From contig JALOQF010000018.1 of assembly GCA_025459425.1 (NCBI GenBank), forward strand, positions 1-39,236: a stretch of DNA of 39,236 nt, written 5' to 3'. The first letter of the stretch is position 1, and the number at the start of each line of letters is the position of its first letter. Both the position numbers and the translations under genes were made by a program. The notes under the pieces are model-generated. The model worked only from the letters and a program-made list of their open reading frames with translations. It was not told where the DNA came from and made no database searches. The DNA is from Myxococcaceae bacterium. Its GTDB lineage: Bacteria > Myxococcota > Myxococcia > Myxococcales > Myxococcaceae. This document shows, in pieces, positions 1 through 11,037 of this stretch.

Positions 1-165
1 GACGAACGCTCGGATGACGAACGCTCGGATGACGAACGCTCGGATGACGAACGCTCGGATGACGAACGCTCGGATGACGAACGCTCGGATGACGAACGCA
101 CCGATAACGAGCGCACGGCCGACGCGCGCACAGCCGCCGAGCGCACAGCCGACGAAACCAAGCCG
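1..165. repeat. 15-bp tandem repeat tract at the left edge
   Basis: The unit gacgaacgctcggat occurs six times without change (1-90). About five degenerate copies follow, keeping the 15-base period, to about 165. Because 15 is a multiple of three, the tract is open in several frames: plus frame 1 reads Asp-Glu-Arg-Ser-Asp, plus frame 2 reads Met-Thr-Asn-Ala-Arg, and one minus frame reads Ser-Ser-Ser-Glu-Arg. The perfect copies point to recent expansion; the right side has decayed. The tract continues beyond the window, so its true length is unknown. Confidence 0.9.
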
Positions 166-250: not shown

Positions 251-1321
251 TCACGCAGGCCACCCGCCACGCCACAGCGGCGCCCAGACCGACTCGGGCA
301 CCTCAGCCACCGTCCACTCACCGGGCGCGCGTAACAGCACCATGCGAAGTCCGCGCCCCGCACCCTTCTTGTCCGCCGCGAGGAGCCGCCGCACCGTGGC
401 CACATCACGCCTCGCAGCCAGGTGCGCCAGGCGTGCGCGGGCCCCGTCGCCTTGAGGGAGCGCCGACTCCACCGCGCGCGCGACGGCCGGTGGCGTCACG
501 CCCAGCGCCACGCCCACGTCGAGCGCGCACAACATGCCCAGCCCAACCGCTTCTCCATGGCGCACCCGGTACGCACTGGTGGACTCGAGCACGTGACCGA
601 ACGTGTGCCCGAAGTTGAGCACCACCCGCACGCCCTTCGTCTCGAACGGATCCGCCGCGACGACCTGCTCCTTCATCGCCCGCGCCTCGCGCACGAGCAC
701 CTCGTCGGCCGGCGCCCGACGGCTCCATCGACGAAACGTCTCGGCGTCGAGCGTCACGGCCATCTTCCACGCCTCGAGACGGCCTTCCCGGCGCTGGGCC
801 TCGGACAACGTGCCGAAGAAGTCGGGACACAGCCACGTCTCGGCCGCGCCGTGAAAGACGCCGAGCGCGTTCTTCACGTCGCCCACGTTCACCGCGCCCT
901 TCCCGCCGACGGAACTGTCGACGGCCGCGAGCATCGTCGTCGGCACGTGCAGCAACCGCACGCCACGTTTGTGAAGGTGCGCGAGCACCGTGATGGCGTC
1001 GCCCACCGTCCCGCCGCCGAGCGCGACGAAGGTGGCCGACCGCGGAACCCCGGCCAACTGCCGCGCGAGCCGCTCCAGGCTCGAGAGCGACTTGAGCGCC
1101 TCTCCGGCCGTGACCCGCAGCACACGGTGACGGCTCAGCGCCGACGCCACCCGCGGGTGGAGCCGCAGCACCCGCGCGTCGGCGAACACCACCGCATCGC
1201 CGGGGAGCGCGCGCACCAGCCTGGTGAAGTCTCCGCGCCGCTCGCGCGCTGGCTCGAGCGCTCCGGGGAGCGCCTCTGGCCCACCACGCCTCGTCGATGC
1301 ACGCTCGCGCACGGCGCTCAT
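251..1321 (-). CDS. aroB: 3-dehydroquinate synthase AroB
   Basis: Converts DAHP to 3-dehydroquinate, the second step of the shikimate pathway, in the cytoplasm with NAD and a divalent metal. The 356-residue product has the usual family length. It shows the NAD-binding GGGTVGD loop, a TTMLAAVDSSVGGK segment, and the metal-site motifs FGHTFGH and HGEAVGLGM near the C-terminus. The ATG at 1321 is chosen because it forms an ATGA overlap with the aroC stop. An upstream in-frame start would add 32 residues that lie inside aroC and look unlike the family. It is last of three tightly overlapped aro genes and so is probably translated by coupling. Confidence 0.93.
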   Translation of the reverse strand: MSAVRERASTRRGGPEALPGALEPARERRGDFTRLVRALPGDAVVFADARVLRLHPRVASALSRHRVLRVTAGEALKSLSSLERLARQLAGVPRSATFVALGGGTVGDAITVLAHLHKRGVRLLHVPTTMLAAVDSSVGGKGAVNVGDVKNALGVFHGAAETWLCPDFFGTLSEAQRREGRLEAWKMAVTLDAETFRRWSRRAPADEVLVREARAMKEQVVAADPFETKGVRVVLNFGHTFGHVLESTSAYRVRHGEAVGLGMLCALDVGVALGVTPPAVARAVESALPQGDGARARLAHLAARRDVATVRRLLAADKKGAGRGLRMVLLRAPGEWTVAEVPESVWAPLWRGGWPA

Positions 1322-2355
1322 GGCCGGTGTGGCCCCGCGAGGAAGGACAACCACAGGTCGGCGAGCACCATCGACGTCATCGCCTCCACCACCGGCACTG
1401 CTCTCGGCAAGATGCACGGGTCATGGCGGCCGGCCTTCGCGACGTCGGTGAGCGTCGACGTCGGCTTGAACAGCACCCGCGCCTCGAGGGGCTCTCCATT
1501 CGACAGCCCCCCCTGAATGCCGCCGTACACTTCGCTCGGCGTTCCGTCGGCGCGCGGGGCGTGGAAGCGGGTGCCCGGAAGGCGCAGGCGCTCCTCGAGG
1601 TCGGCAGGCCCCCACACCACGCCCGTCACCGCGCCGATGCCTGACAGCGCATCCGCGAGCCGCGCCTTCAGCTTGCCGAAGACGGGCTCTCCCAGGCCCA
1701 CGGGCAGCCCCTCGCAGCGCACCGTGATGGCCCCGCCGAGGCTGTCACCTTCGGCCTTCGCCTCGAGAATGCGCGCCTCGACCTGCGCCGCTGTCGAGGC
1801 GTCGGGCACCCGGCTCGCGTGCGCATCGACGGCCTGACGCGTGAGCCCCCCAGCCGGTGTCGGAGCGACGAACCGTTCGACCTGTGACACCCACGCCACC
1901 ACGCGGAGCGCCGGCACCTCGCGCGCCAGCAACGCCTCGGCGATGGAGCCGCCGATGACCCGGCAGAGCGTCTCGCGCCCGCTGGTTCGGCCACCGCCGC
2001 GGGGGTCTCGGTGCTGAAAGCGCGCGCGCCAGACCCGGTCTGCGTGGCCCGGCCGCTCCTTCGTCTTGAGCGCGTCGTAGTCCTGGCTGCGCTGGTCCTG
2101 GTTGCGCACGATGGCGGCGATGGGCGTGCCGAGCGTCTTGTCTTCGTAGACACCCGAGAGCAGCTCGACCTGGTCGGGCTCGTTCCGCGAAGTGGTGAGC
2201 GCGCTCTGGCCGGGCCGCCGGCGGTCGAGCGCCTGCTGCACCTGCGCCCGTGTCAGCGGTACTCCCGCCGGACAGCCATCGACGACGGCGCCCATCGCCG
2301 GCCCGTGGCTCTCGCCGAAGGTGGTGACACGAAAGAGGTGCCCGAAGGTGTTCAC
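1318..2355 (-). CDS. aroC: chorismate synthase AroC
   Basis: Makes chorismate from EPSP, the last common step before aromatic amino acids, folate and quinones; it needs reduced FMN. The N-terminus NTFGHLFRVTTFGESHG is the classic start of this family. The RGGGRTSGRET segment matches the conserved FMN/substrate-binding signature, and QGGLSNGEP appears near the end. Length is 345 residues, slightly short of typical. I place the start at the GTG coding for the residue just before NTFGH, since this gives a GTGA overlap with the stop of the upstream AroK-D-E gene and matches the family N-terminus. Further upstream in-frame sequence is a shadow of the fusion gene. Confidence 0.93.
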   Translation of the reverse strand: MNTFGHLFRVTTFGESHGPAMGAVVDGCPAGVPLTRAQVQQALDRRRPGQSALTTSRNEPDQVELLSGVYEDKTLGTPIAAIVRNQDQRSQDYDALKTKERPGHADRVWRARFQHRDPRGGGRTSGRETLCRVIGGSIAEALLAREVPALRVVAWVSQVERFVAPTPAGGLTRQAVDAHASRVPDASTAAQVEARILEAKAEGDSLGGAITVRCEGLPVGLGEPVFGKLKARLADALSGIGAVTGVVWGPADLEERLRLPGTRFHAPRADGTPSEVYGGIQGGLSNGEPLEARVLFKPTSTLTDVAKAGRHDPCILPRAVPVVEAMTSMVLADLWLSFLAGPHRP

Positions 2356-4121
2356 GTGGACGACTCCCAGAGCGACCGTTGACGGCGTGCCTGCGCGAGG
2401 AACCACCGGGGCCCGAGCGCGAGCGGGGTTCCGCCGCGGGCGCGAATCGACGCGGCGATGACGCGGGCGGGAGCGCCGTACGCGATGACGGCCACCAGCG
2501 CGCCGTCGAGGCGCAGCGGCGCTGGCACCTCGACTGGCGCGGGCCACGTCCACACCGCGGCGGTCGTCGTCACGGGCCCGGCCGTCTGGCGCGTCATGAC
2601 GACCAGCTCGAGGCCCAGCTGGGCGGCGGCCTCACGCAGGGCGTCGGTGGCGCCACCATCACCGAGCACCGTGACTCGCTGCGCGCCCGTCCGCTCCCGC
2701 AGCGCCGACAGACTGGCCGCGGCGCCTTCGCGGTCGGTGTTGAACGACGCCCAGCCCTCGACGTCGCGCACCAGGGTGTTCACCGCAGGCCGCAGCGCGC
2801 CGACCGCCTTCGCGACGGGCTTCTTGAAGGGGTTGGTGACGGCGAAGCCGCGGTAGTGCGGCCGCAGCACCTCGAGCAGCGCGCCGACGTCGGTGTCGGG
2901 CGGCACGTCGAGCCGGTCGAAGGGCTGCGCGTGCAGGCGCGGGCTGCGCGAGTGCGCGAGCGGGTGGCCGAGAATGCCCAGGCGCTGGGTGCGCGCGTCG
3001 TGGGTGGCGCGCTGGCTCGACCGCACGGCATCCGAGACGAGCCGTTGCCCCGGCGCCGCGGCCCACGCCGGCTCGAGCGCGAGGTAGTCGAGCGCGTTGT
3101 CGACCGCGAGCAGCGCCCGGAACGGCGACGCCAGCGGCCCGGTGGCGAGCACCGTCACGCGGTGGGCACCGAAGCGCTCGATGAGGCGGCGCTGCGTCTC
3201 GAAGAGCCGGTGGGCCTGGCGGAGGTCTCCGAGCGGCTCGACGTGCTTGAGGTGAGCGCCGTCGGGCAGCGACGCCCACCGGGCGACGGCGTCGTCCACC
3301 GACAGCGGCGCCTCGGCGTGAAGCGAGCGCACGTCACCGTCGGCGGCGTCGAGCAGCGAGGCGCGCGCCCGCCACGACGACGGCGCCGCAGGCCCGCGCT
3401 CTGCGACGAGAACCGGCAGCGCTCGCGCGACGGGCGTCAGGTCGACCTCGAGCGGCGTCAGGTCGGTGCGCACCTCGAGCACCTCGGCGCCCGCGTGGCG
3501 GGCTTTCCAGGCGAACTCGACGGGGTGCGTGAAGGGCGGGAGCGTCACCACGCGCCGCGCACGGGCCGGGCGCTCGGCGGCGAGGGCCAGGTCGACGAGC
3601 GACGACGTCTTCACCCGTCGATGGAGCGCCTCGCGCTCGTGCCACACCGCCTCGAGCTCTCCGTCGAGCGACAGCTCGGGCCTGAGGCGCGGCCGCGTCG
3701 TGTCGGCCAGCAGGCGCTCGCGGTACGTCTCGAAGGTGAGGGGCACCACCACCGTCACGCAGCCAGTGAGGGCCTCGGGGTGGTGCGACAAGAAGCCGCC
3801 GCCGACGGCCACCACGAGCCCGCGGGGCAGCGCGCGGAACGCCTCGCGCTCGGCCTGGCGAAACGAGGCGGCGTCGGCAGCGACCCAGTCGCGCAGCGAG
3901 CGCCCGTGCACGGCTTCGAGGTGCGCGTCGAGGTCGAGCGCAGGCCGGCCGAGCCGTGCGGCGACGGGCCCGAGCAGCGTCGACTTCCCGGCGGCGCGGT
4001 GGCCGGCGAGCACGACGGTGACGCCGCGCGGGAGCCCTTCGCACGGCGCCTGGGCCCGACGGACGAGCTCCGCACGAAGGCCGTCACGCAGCCGTGGGTC
4101 GACGAGGGCGAACCAATCCAC
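2352..4121 (-). CDS. three-domain shikimate kinase / type I dehydroquinate dehydratase / shikimate dehydrogenase fusion
   Basis: One 589-residue ORF appears to carry three shikimate-pathway enzymes. Residues 33-180 look like shikimate kinase, with Walker A GHRAAGKST at 40-48, DLDAHLE, and the VAVGGG loop at 104-109. Residues about 188-365 look like type I dehydroquinate dehydratase: EVRTD at 216-220, a candidate general-base His268, a candidate Schiff-base Lys292, an Arg in GPLASPFR, and APGQ at 356-359. Residues about 378-589 look like shikimate dehydrogenase: SRSP at 391-394, VTNPFKK with catalytic-type Lys433, NTD at 461-463, and a glycine loop LGDGG. The dehydrogenase part is a little short at its N-terminus. 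The start is GTG at 4121. The order AroK-AroD-AroE equals the last three domains of fungal AROM. Domain identities are read from motifs; activity of each domain is inferred. Confidence 0.85.
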   Translation of the reverse strand: MDWFALVDPRLRDGLRAELVRRAQAPCEGLPRGVTVVLAGHRAAGKSTLLGPVAARLGRPALDLDAHLEAVHGRSLRDWVAADAASFRQAEREAFRALPRGLVVAVGGGFLSHHPEALTGCVTVVVPLTFETYRERLLADTTRPRLRPELSLDGELEAVWHEREALHRRVKTSSLVDLALAAERPARARRVVTLPPFTHPVEFAWKARHAGAEVLEVRTDLTPLEVDLTPVARALPVLVAERGPAAPSSWRARASLLDAADGDVRSLHAEAPLSVDDAVARWASLPDGAHLKHVEPLGDLRQAHRLFETQRRLIERFGAHRVTVLATGPLASPFRALLAVDNALDYLALEPAWAAAPGQRLVSDAVRSSQRATHDARTQRLGILGHPLAHSRSPRLHAQPFDRLDVPPDTDVGALLEVLRPHYRGFAVTNPFKKPVAKAVGALRPAVNTLVRDVEGWASFNTDREGAAASLSALRERTGAQRVTVLGDGGATDALREAAAQLGLELVVMTRQTAGPVTTTAAVWTWPAPVEVPAPLRLDGALVAVIAYGAPARVIAASIRARGGTPLALGPRWFLAQARRQRSLWESST

Positions 4122-4665: not shown

Positions 4666-5568
4666 TCAGCCCAGCAGGGCTTCCCACTCCTCGCCACTCC
4701 GAATGACGCGCGCCCCGAGGGCCTCGACGATGGCCCGGTTGTTCTCCGCGGCGCGCCCGCCGACGATGAACTGCGCCGAGGTGCCGCGCTCCTGCATCAT
4801 CTCTTCGAGCGTCTGACGGAAGACGTCGGGGCCTTCGTCGTTGATGACCGACAAGGCCACCACCTGAGGCTGCGTCACGCGCACCACCCGCGCGAGGTGC
4901 TCGGCCGGCGTGCGCGCCCCGAGGAAGGTGACGCGCCAGCCCGCGTGCCGGAACCGGAGCGCCGCGCCCATCAGGCCCAGCTCGTGCTCGTCACGGGGGA
5001 AACAGGCGCACACCACGTGCTGCCGCGCGCGACGGGGCGCCTGGTGCAGCAACGCCACCACCCGCTGGCGCGCGGCCTGGGTGACGAGGTGCTCCTCGGC
5101 CACGGTGAGGTTGCCAGCGTGCCACCGCTCGCCCACCTCGCGCTGCAGCGGCGCCAGCACCTCTTCGAAGAAGGCCACCGGCGGCATCGACGCCATCGCC
5201 TCGTCCAGCACCTGCTCGACGGACTGCTGGTCGAGGCGCTCGGCGGCCACCAGAATCTCCTGGCGCCAGCGGTCGGTCTGCCCCGCCTTCGGTGCCCGCA
5301 CCGGAGCCCGCTCGGCGCGCTCCAGCGTCTCCTTCACGTCGCGCTTGATGCTCGGCAGCAGCTTCACCGCCTCGGCGATGGACACGCCTTCTTCGGTGAG
5401 CTGCTTGAGGCGCTTGAGCACCGCGATGTCGGCCTCGGTGTACGCGCGGTAGCCCGACGGCGTGCGCCGGGGCTTGAGCACGCCGTAACGGCGCTCCCAG
5501 GCGCGAATGAGGCCTTCCGAGACACCACTCATCTCGGCCGCGATGTTGATTCGGTACGTCCGCTCCAT
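4666..5568 (-). CDS. carH: CarH/CarA-type B12-binding MerR repressor
   Basis: A 300-residue regulator. Residues 1-75 form a MerR winged helix-turn-helix (AWERRYGVLKPRRTPSGYRAY). Residues 100-180 form a cobalamin-domain helical bundle with W149-x9-E159-H160, the motif that caps adenosylcobalamin in CarH. Residues 185-300 form a B12-binding Rossmann domain with DEHELG (His195 as lower-ligand candidate), a LSVIND segment and VGG. In known CarH, AdoCbl drives tetramer formation and repression in the dark, and light breaks it. Having the full set of B12 residues favours a CarH-like photoreceptor over a B12-independent CarA, but sequence alone does not settle this. The ATG at 5568 shares one base with the preceding stop (TGATG). 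Being last in the operon it probably regulates, it would be autoregulated. Confidence 0.88.
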   Translation of the reverse strand: MERTYRINIAAEMSGVSEGLIRAWERRYGVLKPRRTPSGYRAYTEADIAVLKRLKQLTEEGVSIAEAVKLLPSIKRDVKETLERAERAPVRAPKAGQTDRWRQEILVAAERLDQQSVEQVLDEAMASMPPVAFFEEVLAPLQREVGERWHAGNLTVAEEHLVTQAARQRVVALLHQAPRRARQHVVCACFPRDEHELGLMGAALRFRHAGWRVTFLGARTPAEHLARVVRVTQPQVVALSVINDEGPDVFRQTLEEMMQERGTSAQFIVGGRAAENNRAIVEALGARVIRSGEEWEALLG

Positions 5569-6296
5569 CACGACTGCGCCGCGTGCTGCTGACGCGGGCC
5601 CTCCTCGGTCGAGACCCTGGGCGCCGGGAGCCGGCGCACCGCGTCCCACCGTTCCTGCACGCCCCTACGTCCTCTCACCACGGCTGTGAAGCCTTCGGTT
5701 GACCTCGCTGACATCACCCGCGCGTAGACTTCACCGAGCGAGGACTCGTACGTGGCCAGGTCGCCCGGCGCGTGCGGCGCGCCGACCTCGACGAGCACGT
5801 CGGGGTGCTCGTGCTCGAGGAAGGCGTAGCGAATGGCGATGGGCACGGCCTGCTTCCTGGCCGAGCGGGCGAGCACCTCGACGCCCCGCGACAACTCGCC
5901 GAGCGGGCCCTGGCCAGCGTGAATTTGACCCTCGGGAAAGATGATGACGCACGCGTTGGGGCGGGCGAGCACCGTCTTGGCGTACTTGAGCGTCTCGACG
6001 GCGCTGCGTGGGTCGCCCCGGCGAATCGAGAAGGCGCCGATGCGCGTGTGGAACGGGTACTTCGCCAGGTTCTGCTCTTCCATCACTGCGTATGCGTCCC
6101 AGCCGGCGGCGAGGCCGAGCTGGTGGGCGATGAAGCCGTCCCAGAAGCTCGAGTGGTTGAGGTACGCGACGAGGCCGTCGCGTGACGAGGGGAGCTGCCC
6201 GCGCACCCACACGCCACGGAACGCGCTGCGCACCTTGCGCCCGATGTACCAGTCGATGACGCGGGAAAAGAGCCCGCCTTTGGCGTCTCGAATCAT
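5568..6296 (-). CDS. PlsC-like 1-acyltransferase, probable carotenoid glycoside acyltransferase
   Basis: The 242-residue protein has the glycerolphosphate-acyltransferase-type motifs: H48-SSFW-D53 (HX4D, catalytic) and FPEG at 120-123. It probably works at the inner face of the membrane with an acyl-CoA or acyl-ACP donor. Placed between a glycosyltransferase and carH in a carotenoid operon, its likely acceptor is the sugar of a carotenoid glycoside, giving a fatty acid ester; this is inferred from position. The start at 6296 forms an ATGA overlap with the glycosyltransferase stop. A role in general phospholipid synthesis is less likely here. Confidence 0.8.
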   Translation of the reverse strand: MIRDAKGGLFSRVIDWYIGRKVRSAFRGVWVRGQLPSSRDGLVAYLNHSSFWDGFIAHQLGLAAGWDAYAVMEEQNLAKYPFHTRIGAFSIRRGDPRSAVETLKYAKTVLARPNACVIIFPEGQIHAGQGPLGELSRGVEVLARSARKQAVPIAIRYAFLEHEHPDVLVEVGAPHAPGDLATYESSLGEVYARVMSARSTEGFTAVVRGRRGVQERWDAVRRLPAPRVSTEEGPRQQHAAQS

Positions 6297-7441: not shown

Positions 7442-8319
7442 GCGACGGCCTTCCCAGAGGCGGCGCGCGCCCCCGACGTTCCATGAAAGCGCTCGAAGTC
7501 GGCGACCTCGGCGAAGACGTGCGCGCCCGGCTCGCTGGCCTCGAGGCGCGCGTAGAAGGGAGACGACTCGAGCACCGTCGGCGCTCCGCCCACCCCCAGC
7601 GTGGCCGGGAACGACAGGCCCCAGTTCGAGCGCGCGCTCTGGCCCACGTCGTCCTCGTGGGACACGGCCAGGCGGCCCTCGCGCACCTCGGCGACGAGCG
7701 TCGGCGCGCCCCACGGCCGCAGCCGAATCGACGAGAAAGCCTCGCGGTGCGTTCGAATGCGGTCGAACCCCGACAGCCCACCTGCGCCGAGCGGCACGTC
7801 ACCCGCGTGGCTGTCGTGCGAGCCCAGGCCCACCAGGTCGAGCTCCCAGCTCGGCACGACGAGCCGCGCCGTGCCGCGCACGCACAGCGGCTGCCAACGG
7901 TGAACCAGGCCGTTCACCACCGACTGCTCGGCGCCGAGCGGCGAGGCCGTCGTGAAGTCCAGCGTGGCCTCGACGGCCGCGGCCCAGGCGGTCTGGGCGC
8001 TGGCCACGTGCATGGTGAAGCCGTCGGGGCGATAGGTGAGGAACGAGCCGCCGAGCCTCAACGTGCGGCCCTCGGCCTCGACCGCGACGTCCTGGAATTC
8101 GTTGACCACCCACACCACCCGCACGCCCTTCTCGTAGAGCGCGACGTGCACGGCGGCGTGCTCCCGCGGCGACCCGCCCTTCTTGTGGGACGCGGCATAG
8201 CGGCCCGAGAAGACGCTCCCGAGCATGAAGGCGAACAGGGCCGTGTAGTCGCCGGCGACGACGTCGGCCGAGTACCAGCGATAGGCGCCGCCCTGCGCCG
8301 GAACCTGGACGCGCGTCAT
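7438..8319 (-). CDS. crtC: carotenoid 1,2-hydratase CrtC
   Basis: Adds water across the 1,2 double bond of acyclic carotenes, giving a tertiary 1-hydroxyl. The 293-residue product has the look of the CrtC/AttH lipocalin-like fold: many beta strands, the early segment YRWYSADVV, and SHKKGGSP and SHDSHAG loops. The gene sits in the usual place after a CrtD-like desaturase. The ATG at 8319 overlaps the previous stop (ATGA). The call leans partly on operon context, since short motifs in this family are not strongly diagnostic. Confidence 0.8.
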   Translation of the reverse strand: MTRVQVPAQGGAYRWYSADVVAGDYTALFAFMLGSVFSGRYAASHKKGGSPREHAAVHVALYEKGVRVVWVVNEFQDVAVEAEGRTLRLGGSFLTYRPDGFTMHVASAQTAWAAAVEATLDFTTASPLGAEQSVVNGLVHRWQPLCVRGTARLVVPSWELDLVGLGSHDSHAGDVPLGAGGLSGFDRIRTHREAFSSIRLRPWGAPTLVAEVREGRLAVSHEDDVGQSARSNWGLSFPATLGVGGAPTVLESSPFYARLEASEPGAHVFAEVADFERFHGTSGARAASGKAVA

Positions 8320-9736
8320 GAGGCGCCTCCCAGGTGCTCGGCCGTCAGCCCTGCGGCGAAGCGCCCCGACAACATCACCAGGGGCACGCCGCCGCCCGGG
8401 TGCGTGCCGCCACCGGCGAAGAAGAGCCCGGGCCGCTCGCCCCGAATGGCGGGCCGCTTGAAGGGCCCGAAGCGCCCGTGCGGCAAGAAGCCGTAGATGG
8501 AGCCCCGCGGCGCGCCCTTCTTCGCCAGGTCGACCGGCGTGCGCTCGGCGACGGTGGTGAGTTCGACGTCCTTCAGCTCGGGCACCAGCGCCTTCACCCG
8601 CGCGCGAATGAACGCCTCGAGGCGGCGCGCGTGCTCGGGCCAGCGGGCCTCTTCTCCGGCGGGCATCGGCGGCACGTTCACCATCGCGTACAGGCCGCTC
8701 TTGCCGGCGGGCGCCATCGTCGGGTCCGTCGCCGCCGGGTGGCAGAGGTGAATCGTCAGCTCGTCGGCGACGCGGCCCGAGCCCAGTTCGGCGAACTCCT
8801 TCGCGTAGTCGGCCGAGAACAGAATGGTGTGATGCGGGAGCGCCAGGCGCGTGGGCGCCTCGAACATCACCACGTAGCCCGACATCGTCAGCGGCTGGTC
8901 GACGTCTCCGCGGTGCTGCAGCGGGTCGGCGTTGACGATGACCGCGTCGAAGGCGCGCTCGTCGACGATGAACTCGGCCCCACGCGAGGTGTGCGTGGCC
9001 TTGCGCCCCAGCACCACCTCGACGCCGTTGCGGCGGGCGGCCTGCTCGAGGCCACGCACGATGCCGCCGAGCCCGCCGACGGCGTGGTGAACGCCGAACG
9101 CGCGCTCGATGTGGGCAATCATCGCGAACGCCGCATTGGCCTCGTACGGCGAGGCGCCCGCATAGGTGGCGAAGCGACCGACGAACTGCCGCAGGTGAGG
9201 CCCCGAGAAGTGCGCGCGCGCCAGGCCGTCGAGCGTCGACAGCTTGAGGCCGGTGACGAGCGTCGAGAGCCCGTTGCGCGCGGCGCGGGCCATGAAGCCC
9301 ATCATCGTCTCGTACGGCGCCTCGAGGTACGGCTGGCCGGCCGCGCGGTAGATGGTCTCGGCTTCGCGGAAGAACGCCCGCAGCGAGCGGCCACCCTCAC
9401 GCTCGAGCGCGTCAGCCTGCTCCGCGGCGCGCTCCAGGTCTTCCCAGCAGTCGAAGACGCGCCCATCGGGCCAGCGGTAGCGCGTCTGCAGCGCCACGCG
9501 CTCGAGCCGCGGCATCAGGTCTTCCGCGCCCAGCTCGGCGAACGTCGCCCGCACGGTGTCGGGCATCGTCATCACAGTGGGGCCGGTGTCGAAGGTGAGG
9601 CCGTCGAGCGACACCGAGCCGGCCTTGCCACCGAGCGCCTCGGTGGCCTCGAACAGCGTCACCTGGTGGCCTTTTCGAGCGAGCACGCCCGCGGCCGTCA
9701 GGCCTCCGATACCACCCCCGATGACGGCGACCCGCT

Positions 9737-9740
<4 letters not shown>
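8316..9740 (-). CDS. crtD: CrtI/CrtD-family carotenoid desaturase (second copy)
   Basis: A 474-residue FAD-dependent desaturase. The N-terminus has the dinucleotide-binding GGGIGGLTAAGVLARKG motif followed by the acidic end of the second strand, and LGGKAG. The C-terminus carries the family signature FFAGGGTHPGGGVP. As in other myxobacterial clusters it lies between the HMG-CoA reductase gene and crtC, which suggests the 3,4-desaturase CrtD acting on 1-hydroxy carotenoids. A role as an additional phytoene or zeta-carotene desaturase cannot be excluded. The ATG at 9740 makes an ATGA overlap; the much longer in-frame extension upstream is a shadow of mvaA. Confidence 0.78.

Positions 9741-11037
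<1,297 letters not shown>

Follow-up and report, generated by a model that had tools for sequence, protein, structure and literature searches.

A predicted trifunctional AroK-AroD-AroE enzyme with a compact, divergent type I dehydroquinase domain in Myxococcota

Fusions of shikimate pathway enzymes are known from several lineages. In the AROM (Aro1) protein of fungi and Apicomplexa, shikimate kinase, type I 3-dehydroquinate dehydratase (dehydroquinase) and shikimate dehydrogenase follow one another in one chain, in the order K-D-E. Bifunctional AroDE and the plant dehydroquinase-shikimate dehydrogenase (2gpt, 2o7q; NCBIfam PRK09310) combine the last two in the same order, and AroD-AroE fusions are described from plants, some archaea, Planctomycetes and Acidobacteria in PMC11237513. 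The same paper describes an AroE-AroK fusion in Methanomicrobiales. Here we analyze a stretch of 39,236 nucleotides (hereafter, the window; contig JALOQF010000018.1) from the draft genome of a Myxococcaceae bacterium (GCA_025459425.1; 8.4 Mb, 651 contigs, about 90% complete), in which a single open frame of 589 codons, with a GTG start and a TGA stop, appears to join all three enzymes; we denote this gene aroKDE. The original prediction, which proposed a three-enzyme fusion in one 589-residue frame without naming a strand, holds for the frame, found on the minus strand at 2352-4121, and for the domain order, which is that of the last three AROM domains. Two-domain AroDE fusions are known already, whereas we found no report of a bacterial AroK-AroD-AroE fusion in the open-licence literature. 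Like the Methanomicrobiales protein, the frame links kinase and dehydrogenase, but that fusion is archaeal and has no dehydroquinase; in the AroK-AroB enzymes (NCBIfam PRK13951, PRK14021), the kinase is instead fused to 3-dehydroquinate synthase, whereas here aroB is a separate gene.

We consider it highly likely, from homology and a structure model, that aroKDE encodes a trifunctional enzyme for shikimate pathway steps 3, 4 and 5, that it heads an operon aroKDE-aroC-aroB(-aroA), and that it arose by fusion of aroK with aroDE within the Myxococcota. Under this model, the middle domain would dehydrate 3-dehydroquinate by the type I mechanism, with a Schiff base on K292 and H268 as the general acid/base, the C-terminal domain would reduce 3-dehydroshikimate, presumably with NADPH (K433/D463), and the N-terminal domain would phosphorylate shikimate with ATP. 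The enzyme is very probably active at all three steps; a benefit of the fusion, such as fixed stoichiometry or channelling, may be envisaged.

The assignment of the middle domain is the crux of this argument. Judged by homology and predicted fold, it is a type I dehydroquinase. A profile of 40 relatives, compared with a canonical type I dehydroquinase profile (12 Myxococcota loci and E. coli AroD), gave 97.4% (E 1.4e-11, 160 columns); 60 column-shuffled templates reached at most 3.0%, a reversed template 0.15%, and the family's own dehydrogenase profile 11%. HHalign decoys consisting of single sequences (35 proteins of E. coli K-12, AroD included) were dropped as an unfair control because E. 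coli AroD alone was also near zero against the profile (0.25%). The profile alignment pairs E216, R218 and D220 with E. coli E46, R48 and D50, R242 with R82, H268 with H143, K292 with K170, R335 with R213, and Q359 with Q236. All eight residues are invariant in 40/40 rows, among 29 invariant positions of 188. They include the His and Lys where the original prediction had placed them and, together with the equally invariant G358, the end of its APGQ motif. PMC4114755 describes Schiff-base formation at Lys170 and the part played by His143. The probability of finding 8 of 10 aligned active-site positions invariant by chance is about 5e-6, or about 4e-5 for 8 of 12 if the absent equivalents of E86 and E116 are counted as misses; both values apply to positions that were chosen after the alignment had been seen.

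The structure model points in the same direction. In a confident model, residues 188-372 match type I dehydroquinases and form a (beta/alpha)8 barrel (VIA-align), and the superposition of residues 185-588 on 2o7q covers 385 residues of the latter. The stretch 188-365, for which a missing dehydratase-like fold or lost catalytic residues had been named beforehand as grounds for rejection, was found to have the fold and to retain catalytic residues. No shikimate kinase appeared among the best 50 structure matches, which were filled by the other two domains. At about 185 residues, with five residues between barrel strands 4 and 5, the dehydroquinase domain appears small for its family, judged by the archaeal 2ox1 with its 196 residues.

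Several observations weigh against this assignment. The proposed Pfam search for DHquinase_I gave no match in the window protein and, with hits accepted up to E 10, matched only 7/40 relatives (best E 0.0033); NCBIfam models likewise failed to identify the middle domain, and searching the PDB with its profile retrieved no dehydroquinase, only one chance match, GliT (E 0.063). In addition, E. coli E86 and E116 have no counterparts here, and S232 is replaced by Ala. Given the positive profile-profile comparison, we attribute the Pfam miss to the limited reach of the model and not to the biochemistry of the domain. Because domain libraries mostly miss this dehydroquinase, genomes of the family may seem to lack step 3, or may have it misassigned to a decayed AroQ.

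The outer domains are more readily recognized. Pfam SKI, also among the proposed searches, matches residues 42-172 (E 1.1e-14, 55.3 bits against a cut-off of 22.1), and residues 1-180 retrieve bacterial shikimate kinases as top PDB matches (best E 6.2e-9). In the Walker A motif, G40, A44, G45 and K46 are present in 17/17 rows, and S47 and T48 in 11/17. For the dehydrogenase, the third proposed search fell just short, with Shikimate_dh_N at 26.9 bits against a cut-off of 27, while NCBIfam aroE models cover residues ~377-513 (best E 1.2e-14), partially and far below full-length cut-offs. The domain has 215 residues compared with 272 in E. coli AroE. Still, S393, K433, N448, D463 and Q577, which correspond to E. 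coli AroE S16, K65, N86, D102 and Q244, are kept in 35/35 relatives, and S391 (equivalent to S14) in 30/35; we take these positions to be the catalytic Lys/Asp pair and the shikimate-binding Ser, Asn and Gln. The SRSP, VTNPFK and NTD motifs of the original prediction are thereby borne out at S393, K433 and D463. In the NADP-binding NRT motif, R511 aligns with E. coli R150 in 27/35 rows. Less favorably, the NADP-binding region is shorter, and conservation is lacking at the position of E. coli N149, where the window's residue occurs in 6/35 rows. The genome also holds a second weak SKI match (L034, G000:C414:14392-14739; 23.6 bits, cut-off 22.1). In an AroE tree, the 18 rows of the compact dehydrogenase form an isolated clade (support 100/100, branch 1.97), separate from 40 other sampled Myxococcota AroE, of which ten adjoin canonical AroD or are fused with it. 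Three canonical-type AroD-AroE fusions from other Myxococcota families (L081, L083 and L085 in G194, G008 and G009) fall apart from this compact subfamily in the dehydrogenase tree.

The AroD-AroE part, hereafter the module, was matched in 90/195 Myxococcota genomes. In 61 of these 90 genomes, a locus was examined at which kinase and dehydratase could both be placed: 19 loci, from 19 genomes and 8 genera that all belong to family f1, are fused, whereas 42 are split; 27/90 module genomes fall outside this junction count, and G109, broken over two contigs, and G143, with no aroK near aroDE, are uncounted. In two fused loci, L018 and L025, the contig ends within the dehydrogenase part. All 42 split loci have the same frame shift, and in each a possible start codon shares four bases (RTGA) or one (TGATG) with the aroK stop. 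In the proposed route, aroDE would already have been a fusion, and aroK, whose stop overlaps the aroDE start in many relatives, would have come into the aroDE frame. The occurrence of the fused frame at 19 loci from 19 genomes argues against chance. The triple fusion was seen in one Myxococcota family only, the coverage beyond the phylum being one single-protein scan of a genome collection (one relative found) and plasmids; the latter gave only partial matches in 7 records, nearly all to the dehydrogenase part and none covering 80% of the query. Thus, the original view that bacterial fusions of this kind are uncommon fits the triple as far as these searches reach but does not extend to AroD-AroE fusions. 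One AroDE frame (L055:2318-3910, plus strand; G104) has about 140 extra residues between its dehydratase and dehydrogenase domains.

The distribution of other dehydroquinases suggests replacement. Among module genomes, 83/90 lack both a canonical type I dehydroquinase and any AroQ above 130 bits, whereas 80/105 genomes without the module have one of these (Fisher P 1e-23 for the anticorrelation of module and canonical enzyme, kinship ignored; the 130-bit line was set after a gap between 132 and 117.5 bits had been seen). This pattern has exceptions that count against it: 25/105 genomes without the module have neither enzyme, in seven genomes the module coexists with an AroQ above 130 bits (G063, G065, G091-G093, G104 and G140), and the window's own genome, with its assembly about 90% complete, might hold a further, unassembled enzyme. 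The AroQ of G104 has no Tyr24. An AroQ-family match is present in most genomes of the family, but the other AroQ-like proteins score lower than those of the seven exceptions; among 17 of these divergent proteins, including two second copies from f1 genomes without the module, Tyr24 is absent in 17/17, and 2-5 of the seven residues essential to type II dehydroquinases (PMC10772564) are kept, counts at gapped positions being alignment-dependent. All seven are kept in 6/6 canonical AroQ controls from other families (one being the position reference), and six or seven in four f1 AroQ copies above 180 bits. Three f1 genomes without the module (G105, G141 and G142) have a canonical AroQ and a better-scoring AroE, and G091-G094 have the module and a second AroE (~142-146 bits). 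The pattern mirrors that of Candida, in which a type II enzyme is absent where the type I domain of Aro1 is intact and present where that domain is broken (PMC9074039).

The copy in the window's genome (L001:76-936, minus strand; G000:C596) is an AroQ-like protein of 286 residues with a long C-terminal extension that has lost most type II catalytic residues, two of seven being kept; its gene adjoins a frame that by eye resembles methionyl-tRNA formyltransferase. It is possibly a repurposed relic. From these comparisons, the following scenario appears to us somewhat better supported than its negation, with considerable room for doubt: a very divergent, small AroD-AroE subfamily replaced, in most of one family, both the type II dehydroquinase and the AroE of the canonical kind; AroK was then fused to it, in what are now at least eight genera and perhaps once, yielding a counterpart of the last three AROM domains in an operon with the other two AROM activities; and the old AroQ persists as a decayed, C-terminally extended relic, maybe with a new job.

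These data bear directly on the possibility that the middle domain is catalytically dead or weak and is kept for structure, such as dimerisation or spacing, while another enzyme performs step 3. There is a precedent in the inactive dehydroquinase domain of C. albicans Aro1, which is covered by the type II enzyme Dqd1 (PMC9074039), and the divergence beyond the reach of Pfam in most rows, the two missing acidic residues and the AroQ-family matches in most family genomes would all suit such a decay. However, the inactive Aro1 domain has lost both the catalytic His and Lys (PMC9074039), which in the myxobacterial domain are invariant, the 17 divergent AroQ-like proteins examined lack the essential Tyr24, and in G144-G146 the fusion is present whereas AroQ gives no match at E 0.001. 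We therefore regard a dead or weak domain as improbable. The same three genomes (loci L017, L016 and L025), from the same family, are 2.1-2.7 Mb in size at 88-99% completeness and have kept the fused enzyme. An assembly or frameshift artefact could be suspected because a single net frame shift separates the genes in split relatives and the draft is in 651 contigs, but the recurrence of the same open junction in all 19 fused loci, across 8 genera, refutes it.

The remaining alternatives concern the origin of the fusion rather than its function. The fused state could be ancestral, with split aroK/aroDE produced by fission. In the AroDE tree, whose root is uncertain, fused rows stand in two weakly supported positions, and the approximately unbiased (AU) test does not reject one clade of all fused rows (p 0.49); the direction of change is not readable from the tree, which leaves room for fission. 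Nevertheless, more distant carriers are split (G011, from another family of the phylum; G057 and G059, from another family of the order), and the kinase-dehydratase spacing is identical in 19/19 fused loci but varies from -10 to +20 bases among split loci, as expected of one derived event. Fission thus seems unlikely, and a derived fusion is the preferred reading. Far less probable still is descent shared with fungal AROM, by transfer or from a common ancestor. It would account for the identical domain order, and in a whole-protein phmmer search AROM chains rank top, with two matched stretches summed; the Shik-DH-AROM model, at 47.4 bits, also exceeds several bacterial aroE models. By domain, however, the kinase scores 39.6 bits with 1shk and 29.5 with AROM 7tbv, the dehydrogenase 37.7 bits with 4p4g and 33.8 with AROM 7u5s, and the AROM model is not among the four top-scoring aroE models (50.6-54.2 bits); moreover, unfused forms with overlapping ends persist in the family, and AroB and AroA are separate genes. 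Because the kinase and dehydrogenase score somewhat higher with bacterial enzymes and 42 loci are still unfused with overlapping ends, we favor convergence with the end of AROM. Between the two origins envisaged in the original prediction, convergence is hence the one retained, and a link to AROM is unsupported by the per-domain bit scores.

Table 1. Features of the window and the basis for their predicted identity
Feature	Coordinates	Strand	Basis
aroKDE, fused shikimate kinase / type I 3-dehydroquinate dehydratase / shikimate dehydrogenase, 589 aa	2352..4121	-	frame, homology, model
Shikimate kinase domain, residues 1-183; Walker A GHRAAGKST, residues 40-48	3573..4121	-	Pfam SKI, PDB matches, E. 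coli AroK alignment
Compact type I dehydroquinase domain, residues 187-374	3000..3563	-	invariant E216, R218, D220, R242, H268, K292, R335, Q359 (40 rows)
Compact shikimate dehydrogenase domain, residues 375-589	2355..2999	-	invariant S393, K433, N448, D463, Q577 (35 rows)
aroC, chorismate synthase	1318..2355	-	Pfam Chorismate_synt E 7e-104
aroB, 3-dehydroquinate synthase	251..1417	-	Pfam DHQ_synthase E 9e-28, DHQS_C E 3e-24
15-bp tandem repeats at contig edge, downstream of aroB	1..155	.	Tandem Repeats Finder (TRF)

The surroundings of aroKDE (Table 1) are consistent with an operon. The likely GTG start of aroC shares four bases with the aroKDE stop (GTGA, 2355-2352), and aroB lies two genes away, as originally noted, in the order aroKDE, aroC, aroB; the exact aroB start is uncertain, likeness to the aroB of L032 starting at 1366. 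In three members of the same genus (L032, L186 from G149 and L187 from G151), the order is aroKDE-aroC-aroB-aroA, followed by a FAD-dependent oxidoreductase gene. Thus, in these relatives all five predicted AROM activities are clustered with chorismate synthase, and three of them are fused. The aroA identity in L032 is given by Pfam EPSP_synthase, and aroA is the best NCBIfam model for L032, L187 and the copy in the window's genome (189-191 bits, cut-off 287). In the latter genome, aroA and the following oxidoreductase gene are on contig C632. Because C632 ends, and the window's contig begins, in 15-bp repeats, aroB and aroA likely follow each other as in the relatives, with the same gene order. 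The genes of the cluster would presumably be transcribed together with aroKDE. The repeats on the two contigs differ; that of the window is GACGAACGCTCGGAT in 7.9 copies, with a second unit after it, and a 24-base piece of the array had no other genome match at up to 3 mismatches. Elsewhere in the window, the minus strand encodes a regulator with MerR and B12-binding domains (4666-5649), presumably CarH-like, and a FAD-type frame that by eye resembles a carotenoid desaturase (8316-10946).

Comparison with known systems shows both shared and distinct features. AROM has five domains, in the order B-A-K-D-E, compared with three here; aroB is a separate gene, as is aroA, which lies in the cluster in the relatives and on another contig in the window's genome; the dehydratase and dehydrogenase domains are compact; kinase and dehydrogenase score nearer to bacterial enzymes; and the fusion occurs in bacteria. 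Compared with the plant dehydroquinase-shikimate dehydrogenase, the myxobacterial protein has an added N-terminal kinase and shortens both shared domains (21% identity to 2o7q), and it scores 31 bits with PRK09310 against a cut-off of 598. Close counterparts are the split aroK and aroDE of the same family (for example, L021 and L036), which comprise the same two frames, are ~45-60% identical by domain and have aroC next to them, but are separate genes with overlapping stop and start rather than one chain. This before-and-after series within one family offers a test of why shikimate enzymes fuse, and makes it possible to ask whether fusion alters flux or channelling and how operon order could yield the AROM-like order.
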